Source: Kordia antarctica (lineage in GTDB: Bacteria > Bacteroidota > Bacteroidia > Flavobacteriales > Flavobacteriaceae). Taken from it: a stretch of DNA of 64,000 nt. The translations under genes and the position numbers were made by a program. The stretch covers positions 1,951,501 to 2,015,500 of the forward strand of contig NZ_CP019288.1 in assembly GCF_009901525.1 (NCBI RefSeq), read 5' to 3'. Positions 13,345-24,754 of this stretch are shown here, piece by piece. The notes under the pieces were generated by a model. That model saw only the letters and a program-made list of their open reading frames with translations, searched no databases and was not told where the DNA came from. The stretch's first letter is position 1. Every line of letters begins with the position of its first letter.

Positions 13345-13524
13345 CTAGTTATTACAATGAAGTGCGGAATGATCTTGTAAATAACATAGCTGTCTGTGAC
13401 GTGTTTTTGGATCAGGAAGCGGACTATGAGGTTTCCCTGGAACTCCTCCATTTACTTCTTGATAATTAACGCTTGAAATAGCTTTTTTGTTTAGGGCTAA
13501 TAACTTAAGATTTCGTTTTTTCAT
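13345..13524 (-). CDS. Short double-glycine leader peptide (putative RiPP/bacteriocin-like precursor)
   Basis: A 59-aa ORF, ATG at 13524. The leader is MKKRNLKLLALNKKAISSVN, then YQEVNGG with a double-glycine site at about residues 27-28. The predicted core of 31 residues begins VPGKPHSPLPDPKTRHRQ and has two Cys (CYLQDHSALHC), compatible with one disulfide or another modification. The Lys/Leu/Asn-rich leader with KKAIS and NGG is typical of Bacteroidota peptide precursors exported by C39-type ABC transporters. No modification enzyme or exporter is adjacent. The neighbours are GSII and a Na+/Ca2+ exchanger. Identification as a gene rests on leader features and length. Confidence 0.7.
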   Translation of the reverse strand: MKKRNLKLLALNKKAISSVNYQEVNGGVPGKPHSPLPDPKTRHRQLCYLQDHSALHCNN

Positions 13525-18140: not shown

Positions 18141-20330
18141 CTAATTCATCTTAATCGTTTCTGTTTTCAGTGTAAAATCCTTGTGTCCTGTTTGCCAAAA
18201 AGCGAATGATAAAATATCTTGACGTTCCGCTTTTCGTTTCTCGGCGCTTGCGTCAAAACCGTGTCCACTATTAAAATCGACATTAAATAATATTGGTTTA
18301 TCGGAAGCATTTGCTTTCAGCATTCGTGCAGCAAACTTTCCAGGTTGCCACGCCGGAACTCTAGTATCATTCATTCCTGCGGTTAGTAAAACTGCTGGAT
18401 ATTTCTCGCCATCTTTTATATGATGATACGCGTCCATTTCTAGCAAATATTCAAATTCGGAAGCATCTTTTACAGTTCCGTATTCTTTAATTCCGTTGAG
18501 TCCATTTGGCGTGTTTTCAGAACGTAATGTGTTCAGTTTTCCAACGCGAATAATAGCTGCTGCATACAAATCTGGACGTTCTGTAATAGCGCGACCAAGC
18601 AAAATTCCGCCTGCGCTAGAACTCCACGCCGCAATTTTACTCGGATTTGTGTACTTTTTATCAATCAAATATTCGGTACACGCAATAAAATCTTTCCACG
18701 TATTGGGTTTTGTCTTTTTAAATCCTGCTTTGTGCCACGTATCACCTTTTTCGCCGCCGCCACGAACGTGTGTTACAGCGTAAATTCCGCCTTTAGCAAT
18801 CCATTCCATCATCATCGTTTCTAATTCAGGTTTCAAGGAAATACCATACGTTCCATAACCTCTCATCAATACATGATTATTGCCTGTTTTTTGAATGTTT
18901 TTATGATAGATTAACGACATAGGAATCAACGTTCCATCATGCGACGCAACTTCTACTTCTTCCACTATAATATCATCATATGTAGCTTTTTTGCTTTTAG
19001 GATCTAAACTTTCTTCGGTAAATTTTTTTTGGTTTGAATCATATTTGTAGCGAACTTCATTTGTGGTCCAACCATTAATTTCTATCCATAAATCATCATA
19101 CGTTGCGCCTTTTGCAATTAAATAGATTGCTCCTGCAGGTTTTGGAATCGGGATTTCTTCAATCAAACCCGATTTTAAACAATATAATTTAGAAGAAACA
19201 CCATTTTTAGTCTTCACAAAAAAGAGCCCTTCTTTTGTAATCGTAAAATCTGAAATCGTTGCATTTGGATCTTCTGCTACCAAAACTTCCGCGTTTCTCA
19301 CATCTGGGTTTTTCAACGATGTTTTACAAATCTTAAAGTTTGACGCTTCTCGCGCTGTCACAAAATACATGTCATCGCCATCAATAAAGAAATATGGAAT
19401 TTTATCTTCTTGTTTAAATAATGGTTTCCAGTGTATTTTCTGATTGTATAAATTTTCATATTCCGTAAAATAATATTCATAATATGGACTTGCGCCAGAT
19501 ACGTTACTGAATATATATTTGTCATGTTGATTCTGTACAATTACTTCTGGAAAATCGCCCGAATTCATTTGTATTTCAGGATTATTTTCTTTGGAAAAAA
19601 TAACGTTTCTCTTTTTCGGATCGCTTCCTAATGTGTATAAAACGGTTTCTACATTCTTTAAATATTCTTCAGCATCACTATTGGTTTCAGGAATGTATTC
19701 GTAAAAAAATCCGCTATCATCCGATAACCAACGAACGCCGCCTAAAGCAGTTGGCCAAGAATTGTAAATAATTTGCGAATATTTTTTTTTGGTTTTCACA
19801 TCTAAAATGATCATTTCAGATATTTCTTCGTCGTCTTTAGAGAGACTAATTACTATTTTAGTATTATCCCAACTTGGGTTAAAATAGTTAATATAATAGT
19901 TGTTTTTTGATTGAATTTTATAAGTTTCAGGGTCAAAAACTAAGATTTCTTCTCCTGCTATTTCATGCCTGCTGTACAGTTTTTTTGATTCCTCTATTGG
20001 ATTTTTCTTCAAGTAATAATAATGATCGTCGTTTGTAAATGTTAGTTCTGATATTTCTGCGGAAGCATTCGTTGTATTTGTTTGAAACGATTCTCGGCCT
20101 GAGATGTTTTGCAATATATTTTGTGCAAATAATGTTTCTTTTTGATACCAATCGAGAATCATAGAATCCTTGATATTTTCGAGCGGTCGGTAGGTATCTA
20201 TAATCTCTTTACCATGATATAGTTCGGAAGTATTACTTTCTATATGGCTTGGTATTCCTCTTTCAAATTGTTTCTCTTTGGAGCAACTTATAAAAATAAT
20301 ACACAAAATAAACAGCACTTTTTTACACAT
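18141..20330 (-). CDS. S9 prolyl-oligopeptidase-family serine peptidase, lipoprotein (oligopeptidase B-like)
   Basis: A 729-aa periplasmic or surface lipoprotein (signal MCKKVLFILCIIFISC). Residues about 40-460 form the seven-bladed propeller. The C-terminal alpha/beta hydrolase domain carries the triad: Ser572 in AWSSSAGG, Asp655 in TAGMNDTRVP and His690 in NSGHGFD. The overall pattern (RGGGEKGDTWHKAG, YGTYG loop) is oligopeptidase B-like, which cleaves after basic residues in short peptides. The gene directly follows a double-glycine peptide gene on the same strand (73-bp gap containing a hairpin). This raises the possibility that the peptidase matures or degrades that peptide, which is inference. 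Confidence 0.92.
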   Translation of the reverse strand: MCKKVLFILCIIFISCSKEKQFERGIPSHIESNTSELYHGKEIIDTYRPLENIKDSMILDWYQKETLFAQNILQNISGRESFQTNTTNASAEISELTFTNDDHYYYLKKNPIEESKKLYSRHEIAGEEILVFDPETYKIQSKNNYYINYFNPSWDNTKIVISLSKDDEEISEMIILDVKTKKKYSQIIYNSWPTALGGVRWLSDDSGFFYEYIPETNSDAEEYLKNVETVLYTLGSDPKKRNVIFSKENNPEIQMNSGDFPEVIVQNQHDKYIFSNVSGASPYYEYYFTEYENLYNQKIHWKPLFKQEDKIPYFFIDGDDMYFVTAREASNFKICKTSLKNPDVRNAEVLVAEDPNATISDFTITKEGLFFVKTKNGVSSKLYCLKSGLIEEIPIPKPAGAIYLIAKGATYDDLWIEINGWTTNEVRYKYDSNQKKFTEESLDPKSKKATYDDIIVEEVEVASHDGTLIPMSLIYHKNIQKTGNNHVLMRGYGTYGISLKPELETMMMEWIAKGGIYAVTHVRGGGEKGDTWHKAGFKKTKPNTWKDFIACTEYLIDKKYTNPSKIAAWSSSAGGILLGRAITERPDLYAAAIIRVGKLNTLRSENTPNGLNGIKEYGTVKDASEFEYLLEMDAYHHIKDGEKYPAVLLTAGMNDTRVPAWQPGKFAARMLKANASDKPILFNVDFNSGHGFDASAEKRKAERQDILSFAFWQTGHKDFTLKTETIKMN

Positions 20331-20352
20331 AATTTTCTGGGATTAATGAAGC

Positions 20353-20378
20353 GTACAAGCCTTTGGAATGACTTGTAC
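20353..20378 (-). other. Hairpin between peptide gene and S9 peptidase gene
   Basis: GTACAAG / CTTGTAC arms surround a 12-nt loop. No T-run follows in the minus-strand direction, so partial termination or transcript processing between the two genes is more likely than full termination. Confidence 0.5.
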
Positions 20379-20403
20379 ACTTAGCTACTCTAATGTAATT
20401 TTA

Positions 20404-20580
20404 TTACTTCACAAATACATCGTGTGCTTGAACCTGCACATGCATTCTAGTGTCTCCTGTTTTTGAGTTACCTTCTCTTGTTCTTCGGCCACCTCCAGAA
20501 ATCATTTCTCGTTCGTTTACTTTTGCTATTCTAACTTTAGATAATAGCAATTTGTCTAGGTATTTGGTCTTGTTTCTCAT
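20404..20580 (-). CDS. Short double-glycine leader peptide upstream of S9 peptidase
   Basis: A 58-aa ORF, ATG at 20580. The leader is MRNKTKYLDKLLLSKVRIAK then VNEREMISGGG, with the double-glycine site at about residues 30-31. The core (RRTREGNSKTGDTRMHVQVQ and AHDVFVK) is basic and Cys-free. The leader pattern (K-L-L-L-S-K-x-x-I-A-x-V-N) is the Bacteroidota peptide-precursor type, and a TACATTTA -7-like box lies at 20604-20611. It is transcribed into the S9 peptidase gene. Next to it lie a TPR-AraC regulator and a bacteriocin-type ABC exporter. The core has dibasic and Arg sites suited to an oligopeptidase B-like enzyme. Confidence 0.72.
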   Translation of the reverse strand: MRNKTKYLDKLLLSKVRIAKVNEREMISGGGRRTREGNSKTGDTRMHVQVQAHDVFVK

Positions 20581-20695
20581 ATTTAATTGTTTTAATGTTA
20601 TACTAAATGTATGAGATAATTACTATCAAATCCAAATGAAGTTATGAACTATTTATAAATTTTAAATGACAGATTTGATTCTAAAATACTGAATA

Positions 20696-22459
20696 TCAAT
20701 TATTTGAATTTTTTATTTTGCTTTTTAGCTGTCGTATAAAGAATGATGGTTTTATGCCCGTTTTCTTGTAAAAAGCTGCCGAAAACGACTGTTGCGTCTT
20801 AAATCCGCTATCTTCTGCAATGGCTTTTATGGTATATTCTCGGAATCGGGAATCGGTTGTAATACGCTCAATGGAATATTCAATTCGAAGTTGATTCAAG
20901 TAGTTTGCAAAGTTTACTTGTTTGATTTCATTAATTACTTTTGACAAATAAGTGCCGTTCGTATTGAGTTCTCTTGCCAATTGTGGTAAGGTGTATCTTT
21001 TCTTGACAAACTTATCGGTAGCTTCAAACTTTTCGAGTTTTGCCAAAATATCATTCACTAAATCTTCGGGTAATTCCTTTAGATTGTTTTCAATAATCGT
21101 GACTTCTTCTTTTATCGCGGCTGCCTTTTTAGATTGCTTTTCTTGTTGTGCTGCTAATAATTTATGGAAACGCTTTTTGTGAATGACTTGTTTTCGGAAA
21201 AAATAATAAATCGCGCCAGCAAACGTTAATAATAAGGACAGTAATATAATAATTGTAGTATCGGACGTTTTATTTTTTTTATTTAATTCTTTAATAATTT
21301 TATCTTTTATTTTAATCAATATTTCATTATCATAATCCTTTAAATTTAGGATTAAGTCTTCATAGCTTGCAGTATAAATGTCATTAAATTTTATTTCTTG
21401 CTTCAAATAGTGAAGATGTTTTTCCTCATCTTTAACTAATTCATAATGTTTTCGTAAATATTTATAGGCATCTAAGAATTCTGGCAGCACATCTTTTGTA
21501 ATCTCTAAGATTGAATCAACACTTCTAAAATGTTTCCTAGCCAACTTAGGATTATTCATTGTCAGGTTATTTTTTCCAAGATATAAATGCGCAAAGGCTA
21601 ACGAAGGTCTTTCGGTAGTGTCATTCAAAAATAGTTTTTTTGCTTTGGTTAAACTATCAATCGATGTTTCATATTCTTTTTTGAAATACGAGTTAATTCC
21701 TGAATTCAATACAAAGTAATTATAAGCATGATGATCTTCTATATCGATAGAACTTTTCATTCCTTTAGCTATGTACTGTGTAGCAGAATCTAATTGTCCC
21801 GTATACGTGAGCGAATGTGAAAGTGCATATAATCCTAAATTGTATTTTTCAACTAGTTTTTTATTTTTAGATCCTTCTAAAAAATTGACATATTGCTTAA
21901 ATACTTTTTTGGCTTCCTCATGTCGCTTCGTTGTATTTTTTATTAAAGCAATATTAAAATTAATGGTTTCATAAAGCAGCGTGTTTTCTTTGGCTAAATG
22001 CAATGCGTCTACATAATATTTGAACGCCGTATTGTACTTTCCTTTTCTATAATAATACCTTCCTTTTAGATGATACCCAAGAGCTGGAAATTTCTCATTG
22101 TTTTTTAAATTTTTTGTAATAAAGAGAATACTATCACTGTATGCTAAACTGAGTTTGTTTAAAGGTTTAAGGTAAAATTCGGAGTATTCATCGTACGCAT
22201 TTGCTATCCCTAATGTATCCTTACTTTGTTTTGCTTTTTGCAATGCAATTTCTAATGTATCCTTACTTTGTTTTGCTATTTGCAATTTTTCTTCAAATGT
22301 AGTAAGATTTACAGAATCAATTTTAATAGTTTCTGTTTGTAGTTTGGTAGAATCAACACTATGTATTGTAATAGTATTTTGCGCAACCAAAAACGCACTA
22401 AAAAGCTGTAAAGCCATTATGAACGCTAGGGTTTTGAAAACTTTTTTTGTATAAATCAT
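20696..22459 (-). CDS. TPR-containing, membrane-anchored AraC-family regulator
   Basis: A 587-aa protein. A signal or anchor segment (IYTKKVFKTLAFIMALQLF) is followed by helical TPR-like repeats (residues about 50-380), a single transmembrane helix (TIIILLSLLLTFAGAIYYFF, about 399-420), a coiled coil with many Lys/Glu, and a C-terminal AraC DNA-binding domain (LARELNTNGTYLSKVINEIK; AIAEDSGFKTQQSFSAAFYK). Such one-component membrane regulators are common in Flavobacteriaceae and couple periplasmic sensing to transcription. It lies between the peptide/peptidase pair and the ABC exporter, making it the candidate regulator of that locus. A 42-bp tandem duplication lies near its 5' end. Confidence 0.88.
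   Translation of the reverse strand: MIYTKKVFKTLAFIMALQLFSAFLVAQNTITIHSVDSTKLQTETIKIDSVNLTTFEEKLQIAKQSKDTLEIALQKAKQSKDTLGIANAYDEYSEFYLKPLNKLSLAYSDSILFITKNLKNNEKFPALGYHLKGRYYYRKGKYNTAFKYYVDALHLAKENTLLYETINFNIALIKNTTKRHEEAKKVFKQYVNFLEGSKNKKLVEKYNLGLYALSHSLTYTGQLDSATQYIAKGMKSSIDIEDHHAYNYFVLNSGINSYFKKEYETSIDSLTKAKKLFLNDTTERPSLAFAHLYLGKNNLTMNNPKLARKHFRSVDSILEITKDVLPEFLDAYKYLRKHYELVKDEEKHLHYLKQEIKFNDIYTASYEDLILNLKDYDNEILIKIKDKIIKELNKKNKTSDTTIIILLSLLLTFAGAIYYFFRKQVIHKKRFHKLLAAQQEKQSKKAAAIKEEVTIIENNLKELPEDLVNDILAKLEKFEATDKFVKKRYTLPQLARELNTNGTYLSKVINEIKQVNFANYLNQLRIEYSIERITTDSRFREYTIKAIAEDSGFKTQQSFSAAFYKKTGIKPSFFIRQLKSKIKNSNN
22211..22294. repeat. 42-bp tandem duplication inside the TPR-AraC gene
   Basis: Two nearly identical 42-bp units, each containing TAATGTATCCTTACTTTG, start at 22211 and 22253. 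They encode the repeated segment (A)KQSKDTLxIA, so the 14-codon duplication keeps the frame. Confidence 0.85.
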
Positions 22460-22780
22460 GGGATATTAATGTAAGCTATATAAGTCATTTTTAAGGTAAG
22501 ACTTTTAATACTTTCAAGTTAGTGAATTTTTGTAAGTATTTGTGAAAGATTTATAAATCGTGAATAGCTTCTCTTGTTTTTAGGTAAACTTTCCACTTAC
22601 ATTTACAGCAATGAAAAGTATAACGATTCAAAAAAGATAGAAGTTTTTTTGGTTATTTAAAACTTCTATAAATGATCTAAATTGTTTGCTTCTGCCACTT
22701 GAGCTAGAGTTTTAACCGATTTCTTTACGCGACGGCAGCTTGTAAATATTTAAATCGAAAAAATACTTTTTTAAGTATGG
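22460..22780. other. Intergenic stretch upstream of ABC exporter
   Basis: About 320 bp between the divergent TPR-AraC gene and the exporter. I see no credible gene. It should contain both promoters, but no clean TAnnTTTG/TTTG pair stands out. Confidence 0.4.
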
Positions 22781-22836
22781 TTGTTGATTAACGTGCTACT
22801 AGTTGTATTACCAAAACAGCTAGTAGCCATCAACAA
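22781..22836. other. Stem-loop upstream of ABC exporter
   Basis: TTGTTGAT (22781-22788) pairs with ATCAACAA (22829-22836), and GCTACTAG (22795-22802) with CTAGTAGC (22820-22827), around a 17-nt loop. It ends about 60 nt before the ABC start and may be an operator or a leader RNA structure. Confidence 0.55.
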
Positions 22837-22894
22837 AATTGTAAGGTATTAAAGATGATTTCACTTTTTGTTCAATCTTAAACATTCAAAATTT

Positions 22895-24754
22895 ATGAAA
22901 TTTAATTCGATTATATATGTTTTGATACTGGCGATTTTAATTTTAGCCTTTGGAATTATTTACCAAGTAATTCTATCGCTCACGATTGACGAAAATTCAG
23001 AAAAATTTACTAAAAGACATCAACTACGAAAACAATGGTTTTTAAACATTTTGAAACCCGATCATAAAACCATTGGATACAGCTTTATATTAGGATTATG
23101 TATTGCAATTTTAGGAATGAGCATTGCGGTGTTTGCACAACAATTAATCGATCAGATATTGCCCTCTAAAAACACCAATATGCTCATTTTTAGTATCGTT
23201 ATCGTCTCCGTATTATTATTAGTAAAAGTGTTTTTTACGACGCTGCGCGATAATTTTCTGATTTCACAAAGCAAAGATTTAAACAATCGAATTATTGATC
23301 GATTTTACACATCATTGTTGCGATTGCCAAAACCGTTTTTTGACACGCGAAAGATTGGCGAATTGGTGGCAAGATTCAACGATACACAACGAATTCAAAA
23401 TGTGATCAAAGTAATTATAGGAAATGTTGTTATTCATACATTAATTTCTATTGTTTCATTAGCATTTCTATTTTATTATTCATGGAAAATTGGCTTGATT
23501 GCAGCTATAAGTTTGCCATTTTATTTTCTATTTATATATGGTTTCAATACAAAAATCATTGTAGCACAAAAGGAAATCATGCGAAGTTCTACAGATAATG
23601 AGAGCAATTATATCAACTCGATTCAAAATATTTCAACCATAAAAAACACAAAAAGACTAAGTGTTTTCCAGAAAATGAATCAACGTATGTATGGAAATTT
23701 TCAAGATAAGATATTTCAATTAGGGAAAATAAATGTGCGTTTGTCGCTATTTTCAAGTGTATTTGGCGTGTTATTCCTAATGGGCGTTTTAATGTACGCG
23801 GCGTTTGAAGTTTATAGCGGATTTATGTTGATTGGCGAACTGACAGCCGTTTTGTGCATTGCAAGTTCGTTGCTTCCTTCTGTGGCAAGTTTGGCTTTAG
23901 TCGCAATTCCGATCAATGAAGCGCAAGTTGCTTTTGACAGAATGCACGAATTGATTGCTTTGGAAGAAGAATCCTCAGAAAAAACACTAATTACACAGTT
24001 TGAATCATTAACTATTACAGATGTTTCTTTTGCCTTTTCACGCAGAAAACAAATTTTAAATAAGATAAATATTCAGGTTTCTAAAAATCAATGTATTGCC
24101 ATTGTTGGCGAAAGTGATTGCGGAAAAACTACGCTGAGTCAACTAATTCAAAAAAAATACACACATACCAATGGAGAAATTTTAGTGAATGAAAAAATTC
24201 CGTTACAACAAATTTCAACCAAAGATTGGCACACTATGATTGGCGTTATTCCGCAAGAAATTATCATTTTTCCAGGCACTTTATTTGACAATATTGTCTT
24301 AGGCAAAAAAGATTCGCTTCAAAATGTGGACGCGTTTATTACGGAATATAGTTTTGAAGATTTTATTCAAAGTTTACCAAAAGGCTACGCAACTTTGTTA
24401 GGAAAAGACGGCATAAATTTATCTGACGGACAAAAACAGATATTGGCATTAATTCGAGTTTTATACAAAAAGCCACAAGTGCTCATTTTGGATGAATTCA
24501 CGGCAACGATGGACAGAAATACTGCAATGTTCGTTTTTAAAGTATTAAAACAATTAAAATCAAAAATTACCATCATTATTATTTCCCATCATTTACAGTA
24601 TTTAAAGTTAGTTGTCGATGAAATTTATATAATTCAAGAAGGAGAAACAAAAGTACATGGAAGTCATAGAACATTATTAAAGACACAAAATTTTTATAGT
24701 GATTTTTGGGAAAAGCTACTAAAAACATCTGAAATAGTTAGTTGGATTTCATAA
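22895..24754 (+). CDS. Bacteriocin-type ABC exporter (SunT/LagD-like core) lacking the C39 peptidase domain
   Basis: A 619-aa fused membrane-ATPase half transporter, ATG at 22895. A first hydrophobic helix (residues 5-27) stands where peptidase-containing exporters have their C39 domain. A six-helix exporter domain follows (residues about 60-330, with LPKPFFDTRKIGELVARFND) and then the ATPase. Walker A is GESDCGKTTLS, the signature motif is NLSDGQKQ (usually LSGGQ), Walker B is VLILDEFTATMD and the switch His is in IIISHHL. The membrane domain resembles peptide exporters more than lipid flippases. It sits near a double-glycine peptide, yet no C39 peptidase is encoded in this window, so leader removal would need another enzyme. 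Confidence 0.82.
   Translation: MKFNSIIYVLILAILILAFGIIYQVILSLTIDENSEKFTKRHQLRKQWFLNILKPDHKTIGYSFILGLCIAILGMSIAVFAQQLIDQILPSKNTNMLIFSIVIVSVLLLVKVFFTTLRDNFLISQSKDLNNRIIDRFYTSLLRLPKPFFDTRKIGELVARFNDTQRIQNVIKVIIGNVVIHTLISIVSLAFLFYYSWKIGLIAAISLPFYFLFIYGFNTKIIVAQKEIMRSSTDNESNYINSIQNISTIKNTKRLSVFQKMNQRMYGNFQDKIFQLGKINVRLSLFSSVFGVLFLMGVLMYAAFEVYSGFMLIGELTAVLCIASSLLPSVASLALVAIPINEAQVAFDRMHELIALEEESSEKTLITQFESLTITDVSFAFSRRKQILNKINIQVSKNQCIAIVGESDCGKTTLSQLIQKKYTHTNGEILVNEKIPLQQISTKDWHTMIGVIPQEIIIFPGTLFDNIVLGKKDSLQNVDAFITEYSFEDFIQSLPKGYATLLGKDGINLSDGQKQILALIRVLYKKPQVLILDEFTATMDRNTAMFVFKVLKQLKSKITIIIISHHLQYLKLVVDEIYIIQEGETKVHGSHRTLLKTQNFYSDFWEKLLKTSEIVSWIS

Follow-up and report, generated by a model that had tools for sequence, protein, structure and literature searches.

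TPR-AraC regulators paired with GG-leader peptides in Kordia: a candidate peptide-sensing cassette beside a C39-less exporter

The stretch of Kordia antarctica DNA analyzed here (contig NZ_CP019288.1; the window, 64,000 nt at its full length) contains a block of four genes encoding a regulator with tetratricopeptide repeats (TPR) and an AraC domain, a 58-aa peptide with a double-glycine (GG) leader, an S9A peptidase and an ABC exporter (Table 1). Our main finding is that the first two belong to a family of adjacent regulator-peptide pairs, and we consider it very probable that such a pair is a functional unit. In the genome to which the window belongs, 19 of the 21 full-length regulators, that is, those with the TPR part and the helix-turn-helix (HTH) in one frame, are followed after 76-203 nt by a gene for a GG-leader peptide in the same orientation. 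This recurring peptide-plus-regulator pair is a candidate for an undescribed way of sensing or controlling a cell's own peptides.

Table 1. Features of the locus, with positions counted from the first letter of the window
Feature	Position	Strand	Remarks
S9A (prolyl-oligopeptidase family) peptidase	18141..20330	minus	729 aa, lipobox-like N-terminus (..FISC)
13-bp stem-loop between peptide and S9	20349..20382	minus	-18.3 kcal/mol, z -4.6
LanA-type GG-leader peptide	20404..20580	minus	58 aa, Cys-free core
Promoter element TACATTTA for peptide-S9	20604..20611	minus	Bacteroidota-type -7
Operator-like element ATTTATAAATAGTTCATAACTTC upstream of peptide-S9	20638..20660	minus	
TPR-AraC regulator	20696..22459	minus	587 aa; domain scans, hydrophobicity, structure model
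Operator-like element ATTTATAAATCGTGAATAGCTTC facing exporter	22549..22571	plus	
Promoter element TACATTTA, exporter side	22598..22605	plus	39 nt past ATTTATAAAT block, spacing as at peptide
Nested inverted repeat (TTGTTGAT..ATCAACAA, GCTACTAG..CTAGTAGC)	22781..22836	plus	conserved, exporter 5' leader
C39-less peptide ABC exporter	22895..24754	plus	divergent from regulator-peptide-S9

Regulators and their peptide partners

The regulator carries the Pfam domains TPR and HTH_18. Its predicted layout comprises a signal peptide, a TPR superhelix (residues 55-341), a transmembrane (TM) helix at about 403-421 and a C-terminal AraC HTH (465-586), the hydrophobic helices being the N-terminal one and a single internal one. 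The AlphaFold2 model (28 sequences; mean pLDDT 84, pTM 0.60) likewise has a TPR superhelix, a long membrane-crossing helix and an AraC domain. All 71 paired regulators examined are predicted to have one TM helix ahead of the AraC domain and no further internal one; an N-terminal hydrophobic stretch is present in 60 of them, and most of the other 11 resemble truncated start calls. When the TPR domain was compared with the PDB by Foldseek, the peptide-binding TPR domains of LGN/Pins matched best, followed by Rap proteins with their pheromones. The modelled TPR fold is compatible with peptide binding, without being specific for it.

Regulator paralogs number 16-49 matches (E<=1e-10) per genome in our comparison set of 11 Kordia genomes, namely the window genome (one contig, 5,500,985 bases) and 10 congeners. 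Within the window genome the search returned 33 places at E<=1e-4, 30 of which were read as loci and 21 judged full length. The two full-length regulators without a peptide are at L073, where an S9 gene directly follows, and at L086. Because a strict regular expression for the leader missed real peptides, peptides were called with a leader hidden Markov model (HMM) together with reading by eye. At a score of at least 5 bits, the HMM found a peptide within 300 nt after 72 of the 93 regulators examined, short ones included (71 at 10 bits or more). The breakdown is 18 of 24 in the window genome, 47 of 53 among the matches listed for five congeners (46 at 10 bits or more), 4 of 7 at hand-picked loci and 3 of 9 outside the genus; the hand-picked loci are 7 of the 60 congener loci and were chosen mostly for a nearby S9 gene or a known peptide. 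Only 3 of 130 other genes scored as positive, and two of these three come from loci (L069, L070) that had been chosen for holding peptides.

A wider scan covered named genomes with 12 regulator queries, and the best 80 of 554 relatives represent 78 distinct loci, mostly from Flavobacteriaceae (Aquimarina, Tenacibaculum, Polaribacter, Lacinutrix, Cellulophaga and others). A peptide scoring at least 8 bits is present in 31 of the 78 loci versus 0 of the 304 other genes of those loci; with the 8 loci overlapping earlier ones left aside, the count is 25 of 70. Spacing within the pairs is narrow: over 102 pairs the distance from the regulator stop to the peptide ATG has a median of 110 nt and a 5-95% range of 76-134 nt. 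The gaps themselves are enriched in motifs. Of 71 gaps, 31 contain TTTATAAA, where 2.9 would be expected, and 21 contain TAnnTTTG, where 6.3 would be; relative to the peptide ATG the two motifs centre on -82 and -38. Among 25 occurrences, TTATAAA is separated from TAnnTT by 46-47 nt in 12 and by 56 nt in 4, two distances that differ by roughly one turn of the DNA helix. Scans for Sigma-70 promoters and terminators gave no signals above shuffles. As a separate observation, regulators L078, L128, L141, L150, L160 and L168, from several Kordia species, form a subgroup whose paired peptides share a core motif near TTRPDSL.

The four-gene block, its peptide and its promoters

On the minus strand, reading from 22459, the regulator is followed by a 115-nt gap, the peptide, 73 nt holding a stem-loop, and the S9A peptidase. 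An earlier note on this DNA, made from the letters alone, had described these four genes as one possible peptide-export locus, and we find all of them at the positions it gave, the S9 gene lying outside its interval yet being part of its description. That the genes belong together is borne out by the relatives, where unlinked, independent occurrence is clearly refuted for Kordia: the block is all-or-none, present as one unit in 6 of the 11 genomes, with order and orientation kept in all five block-bearing congeners. Identities to the window genes in these congeners are 60-73% for the peptide, 76-79% for the exporter, 76-80% for S9 and 63-68% for the regulator; the exporter ortholog of genome G005 is 82% identical, over the membrane part. 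Close orthologs of exporter, S9 and regulator are confined to exactly the genomes with a peptide ortholog (5 of the 10 congeners), and none of any of the four genes was found in the other five Kordia genomes, drafts that are 95-99% complete. The single case described in the earlier note is real. That note had seen neither the family of regulator-peptide pairs and its lanthipeptide link nor the operator shared within the locus and the conserved stem-loop that separates peptide and S9.

The small gene was also considered as a chance open reading frame, and this is ruled out by its orthologs and by purifying selection. The ratio of nonsynonymous to synonymous differences (pN/pS) rises along the peptide, from 0.31 for the leader through 0.51 for the front of the core to 0.72 for the tail. 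The string NSKTGDTR is kept in the peptides of 4 of 6 species, one other differing at the first residue and one at the last two. As had been proposed, the core is free of Cys, and this holds in all six ortholog sequences, so that none offers a Cys for (methyl)lanthionine formation.

The peptide and exporter promoters share an architecture. The element TACATTTA, of the Bacteroidota -7 promoter type (consensus TAnnTTTG), lies on both sides, and the arrangement ATTTATAAAT-N39-TACATTT is found in 12 of 12 promoters, counting the peptide and exporter sides in six species. In the best ungapped 62-nt alignment the two promoter regions have 37-41 identities, with shuffles averaging about 33 and the highest of 60 reaching 36-39. 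A 22-base operator pattern, built from the two window sites, matches without mismatch only at those two sites in 5.5 Mb, and no other genomic match has fewer than two mismatches. The possibility that this operator defines a genome-wide regulon was rejected, because allowing up to 3 mismatches gives 59 sites versus 68 for a reversed control pattern. On the exporter side, the nested inverted repeat sits in a long leader between promoter and start codon, and of the six Kordia copies five have its stretch TTGTTGATTAACG unchanged.

Peptidase, exporter and lanthipeptide context

The peptidase has the Pfam domains Peptidase_S9 and Peptidase_S9_N, and thus the propeller and hydrolase domains of the S9A family, together with the Ser, Asp and His motifs SSSAGG, NDTRV and GHGF; these motifs are also found in the three orthologs read, and several distant relatives fail to match at least one of them in this simple form. 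A canonical oligopeptidase B (OpB) was ruled out, and the proposed OpB-type Arg cleavage of the peptide is not supported: the enzyme scores 167.9 bits against the curated OpB model (cut-off 1313), and its best PDB matches are prolyl endopeptidases, with OpB ranking lower. In the 11 Kordia genomes there are 32 S9 matches, comprising 6 orthologs (all in the block), 16 paralogs (42-49% identity) and 10 at 27-29%, the last presumably ordinary enzymes. Twelve of the 16 paralogs start no more than 450 nt downstream of a TPR-AraC gene, one lies at 1.4 kb, one is unlinked and two fall outside the comparison. S9 therefore recurs as a partner of TPR-AraC genes, as a comparison of neighbourhoods suggested with the earlier note now confirms, and it is present downstream on the same strand in 11 of the 78 loci of the wider scan. 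A link between S9 and regulator need not include a recognizable peptide, as L073 shows.

The stem-loop between peptide and S9 is kept in all six Kordia orthologous loci. Of its 13 pairs, 6 are invariant, 4 vary on one side, 1 shows a two-sided change and 2 are broken in one sequence each. Hairpins of similar shape and other sequence follow the peptide in all 8 further S9-linked loci that were folded. Since the window stem-loop has no T-tract, it would point to differential expression rather than full termination.

The exporter has the Pfam domains ABC_membrane and ABC_tran. Neither Pfam nor curated profile scans matched a C39 peptidase in it, and its matches to profiles of peptidase-containing exporters start at profile positions 116-139, past the C39 part. 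Its nearest relatives (63-64% identity) retain C39, and therefore this exporter has lost it; the description of an exporter with a single N-terminal helix in place of C39 stands. Its start is more likely ATG 22895 than the TTG 22868 initially given, because the orthologs begin at ATG 22895. The C39-bearing relatives adjoin a thioredoxin-like protein, a hydrophobic protein of 210-227 aa and bacteriocin-like GG peptides (in our loci, L187 8976-9170 and L188 11226-11420). The exporter's N-terminal helix matches the start of the hydrophobic protein encoded upstream in one relative at 14 positions (shuffle maximum 11) and that of a second relative more weakly, at 10 (shuffle maximum 12, P 0.0016). 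It looks as if a deletion had joined the first helix of the hydrophobic protein to the exporter past C39. C39 exporters are present in every one of the 11 Kordia genomes. The window genome also encodes stand-alone ABC ATPase-domain proteins of 236-260 aa (L184 6550-7260, L185 5820-6602, L180 5223-6005), which are 53-56% identical to the exporter's ATPase domain and have a Walker A motif that appears degenerate by eye; for one of the three, a TPR-AraC/S9 pair is located some 2.8 kb away.

The leader connects the peptide with lanthipeptides. Bacteroidota class I clusters, among them that of pinensin, are described as having LanA leaders of the form LxLxKx5L, often followed by GG, a C39 exporter and a split LanB (PMC7268733). 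The window peptide has a leader of this form ending in GG, with V at the last place, and the K. algicida ortholog (LLLSKVKIATL) agrees with it exactly. Against NF038153, the model of class I lanthipeptide leader L1a, the window leader scores 16.2 bits, under the cut-off of 22; the Pfam scan of the peptide gave no match. At 10 of the 78 loci of the wider scan the regulator directly follows genes for LanB and LanB-C, and 9 of these have the peptide. Therefore the pair belongs with Bacteroidota class I lanthipeptide systems and, judged from its sequences and gene order, the regulator-peptide family is linked to LANTHIPEPTIDES. In L250 and L256 the order is LanB, LanB-C, regulator, Cys-free peptide and S9, so that the window cassette looks as if the last part of such an operon, with regulator, precursor and peptidase, had been copied and now stood alone. 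No LanB or LanC is encoded with the window peptide, the single LanB of the genome lying 1.77 Mb away. The peptide is accordingly LanA-like in sequence and yet not a predicted lanthipeptide precursor, given the missing Cys, the missing LanB/LanC at the locus and the score below the cut-off. The words AraC and tetratricopeptide are absent from the main text of PMC7268733.

Each of the 11 Kordia genomes has exactly one LanB match. In the three genomes read, this hub consists of LanC, LanB, a LanB C-terminal part, a TPR-AraC gene and a GG peptide, and an HlyD protein and a C39 exporter converge on it (the Pfam names were tested in one genome). NF038153 matches at E<=1 number 71 in the window genome (20 above the cut-off) and 72-144 in the congeners. 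Peptides paired with regulators contain on average 2.91 Cys in Kordia (n=68) and 1.15 elsewhere (n=26); for the unpaired NF038153 peptides of the window genome, 28 taken from the 30 best matches, the mean is 4.75. This unpaired set includes L018, actually the partner of regulator L093, a locus that dropped out of the pairing analysis although its peptide had been recognized. Paired peptides are poorer in Cys than these at P 3.5e-5 in Kordia and 1.1e-9 elsewhere.

Readings of the locus and known systems

We give about even credence to the reading that the locus is a dedicated regulon, in which the regulator probably uses its periplasmic TPR domain to sense a Cys-free peptide of the LanA type after export. 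With the same middling confidence we regard it as a satellite that stands apart from the class I lanthipeptide system of Bacteroidota to which it belongs, and which places a regulator, its own peptide, an S9A enzyme and a C39-less exporter under one control. The TPR-AraC protein would sit in the inner membrane with the TPR domain in the periplasm and the AraC domain in the cytoplasm, as its sequence and model predict. It may bind the ATTTATAAAT-centred element located 39 nt before the TACATTT promoter and, once bound, would activate both the peptide-S9 genes and the divergently oriented exporter gene. The Cys-free peptide would leave through the dedicated exporter or through a C39 exporter encoded elsewhere in the genome and lose its GG leader, and the released peptide, or the freed leader, may then be bound by the TPR domain, resulting in autoinduction. 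We infer sensing by this domain from the one-to-one adjacency of the genes, their narrow spacing and the peptide-binding type of the TPR fold. S9 might trim or destroy the product of roughly 27-34 aa, shaping or ending the signal, and the stem-loop past the peptide gene could let peptide output exceed that of S9.

More tentatively, and with less than even confidence, these pairs may represent a distinct form of Gram-negative peptide signalling, in which TPR-AraC proteins act as one-component receptors across the membrane, each matched to a GG-leader peptide that descends from precursors of class I lanthipeptides, and have expanded into tens of parallel channels per genome, often with a peptidase of the prolyl-oligopeptidase (POP) family ending or shaping the signal. 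Such channels could supply the density signal of K. algicida. In this species the release of an algicidal protease depends on cell density and is sped up by cell-free filtrate; the published work detected no acyl-homoserine lactone and did not identify the signal (PMC3117869). As K. algicida OT-1 has the window's locus (L063/L228) and 17 regulator homologs (E<=1e-10), a search for its signal and receptor can start from a small set of candidate pairs whose target promoters are predicted. If the signalling reading is true, this one-to-one, repeatedly duplicated regulator-precursor cassette would be a Bacteroidota peptide-signalling architecture comparable to Rap-Phr, and it would suggest that part of what is annotated as class I lanthipeptides in Bacteroidota serves as signals or as ligands of regulators, not as antibiotics.

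Several observations weigh against the signalling interpretation. First, TPR folds are generic, and LGN/Pins, not Rap, is the top Foldseek match. Second, the leader HMM was trained on peptides of the same set, and therefore the Kordia counts are partly circular and the 78-locus scan is the fairer one; in that scan 47 of the 78 loci have no peptide at 8 bits or more. Third, strong coevolution of receptor and peptide has to be rejected, the signal being weak: core and TPR similarity are correlated with rho 0.147 (partial 0.118; none of 300 permutations as high), and the nearest neighbours of core and TPR agree in 27 of 64 cases. Fourth, only 2 of the 68 paired peptides in Kordia are free of Cys, so that the window peptide is not typical. 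The common control of the block is also affected, as the highest shuffle exceeds the observed 38 promoter identities in G005 (L064), and the second half of the operator, ATA-N-CTTC, is found in all six exporter promoters and in 3 of the 6 peptide promoters. Finally, the G005 exporter lacks its ATPase domain, with peptide, regulator and S9 intact.

Some of the same facts could be accommodated if the peptide were instead a product, that is, a Cys-free and possibly dehydrated ribosomally synthesized and post-translationally modified peptide (RiPP) or bacteriocin acting on other cells, with the regulator answering another envelope cue and with S9 and exporter serving maturation and export. We consider this rather unlikely. 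It agrees with the LanB genes directly upstream of the pair in other genomes, with the class I LanA type of the leader (PMC7268733), with the POP-family proteases reported for class III lanthipeptides (PMC8960859, PMC7268733) and with the bacteriocin-like GG peptides that accompany the nearest exporter relatives. It does not account for a peptide of its own beside nearly every full-length regulator of the window genome, nor for the scarcity of Cys in paired peptides relative to unpaired ones, which resemble classical precursors. Moreover, the core has no Cys for a ring, and general domain scans recognized no immunity gene at the locus, none having been specifically searched for.

It was further suggested that the S9 lipoprotein could be a leader peptidase that replaces the lost C39 after export. 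The loss of C39, the adjacency of S9, peptide and exporter in 6 of 6 species (the G005 exporter being partial) and the presence of the Ser, Asp and His motifs all agree with such a role, which is nevertheless improbable: S9-peptide-regulator triplets are also seen where no C39-less exporter adjoins them and where the genome has C39 exporters, G005 has kept its S9 after losing the exporter ATPase domain, and OpB-type specificity is not supported. S9A enzymes favour peptides of up to about 30 residues, and therefore the freed core fits better than the 58-aa precursor. That the four genes are mere neighbours, a regulator with a functionless small open reading frame beside unrelated S9 and exporter genes, would suit the fast divergence of the peptide tail and is very improbable: the four occur all or none in 11 genomes, leader and core are under purifying selection, the promoters share an architecture, and the arrangement recurs in other genera.

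For the reading as a sensing pair, the closest parallel is the RRNPP group, which includes Rap-Phr, NprR-NprX and PlcR-PapR and whose receptors have an N-terminal Xre-type HTH or a phosphatase as output. The likeness lies in a TPR receptor gene adjacent to a small propeptide gene, with the peptide downstream and several paralogous pairs per genome (PMC10075063), an adjacency shared by all but two of the full-length regulators here, and in a TPR fold that matches Rap-pheromone complexes. In contrast, our regulator is predicted to be membrane-bound with a periplasmic TPR domain rather than cytoplasmic, its output is a C-terminal HTH_18/AraC domain, and a GG leader with predicted ABC export in a Gram-negative host takes the place of Sec export and re-import. 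By analogy, the pair would work like RRNPP pairs yet is not a member of that group. The nearest published remark we found concerns two RiPP clusters of Bacteroidales and proposes a possible regulatory role, following pheromone binding, for their TPR genes (PMC10352776). No published description of TPR-AraC/GG-peptide pairs was found in the open-licence literature, which makes this a weak absence.

Other systems share single traits with the locus. One LanB hub and many dispersed precursors per Kordia genome recall the prochlorosin type, in which one class II enzyme serves many precursors (PMC7268733); the Kordia enzymes differ in being of class I, and 19 precursors of the window genome bring their own membrane regulator, their modification being putative. 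The presence of one LanB against 71-144 dispersed class I-type leaders per Kordia genome may be a class I counterpart of that system, an observation apart from the pair discussed here. An S9A enzyme is encoded beside a LanA-type precursor as in LanPB/FlaP (PMC7268733, PMC8960859). However, the window S9 has a signal-peptide or lipoprotein-like N-terminus, a Bacteroidota host and a class I-type leader beside it, and it is a recurrent third gene after regulator and peptide, with leader removal putative. The exporter is related to SunT/LagD, the peptidase-containing ABC transporters (PCAT), in its membrane and ATPase domains, and differs from them in the missing C39 and in an N-terminal helix resembling the start of the relatives' upstream membrane protein.

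Within the window, no TPR-AraC homolog was matched besides the regulator at 20696-22459. Another peptide with a GG leader like that of class I lanthipeptides is encoded in the window at 13345-13524 on the minus strand (MKKRNLKLLALNKKAISSVNYQEVNGG...).

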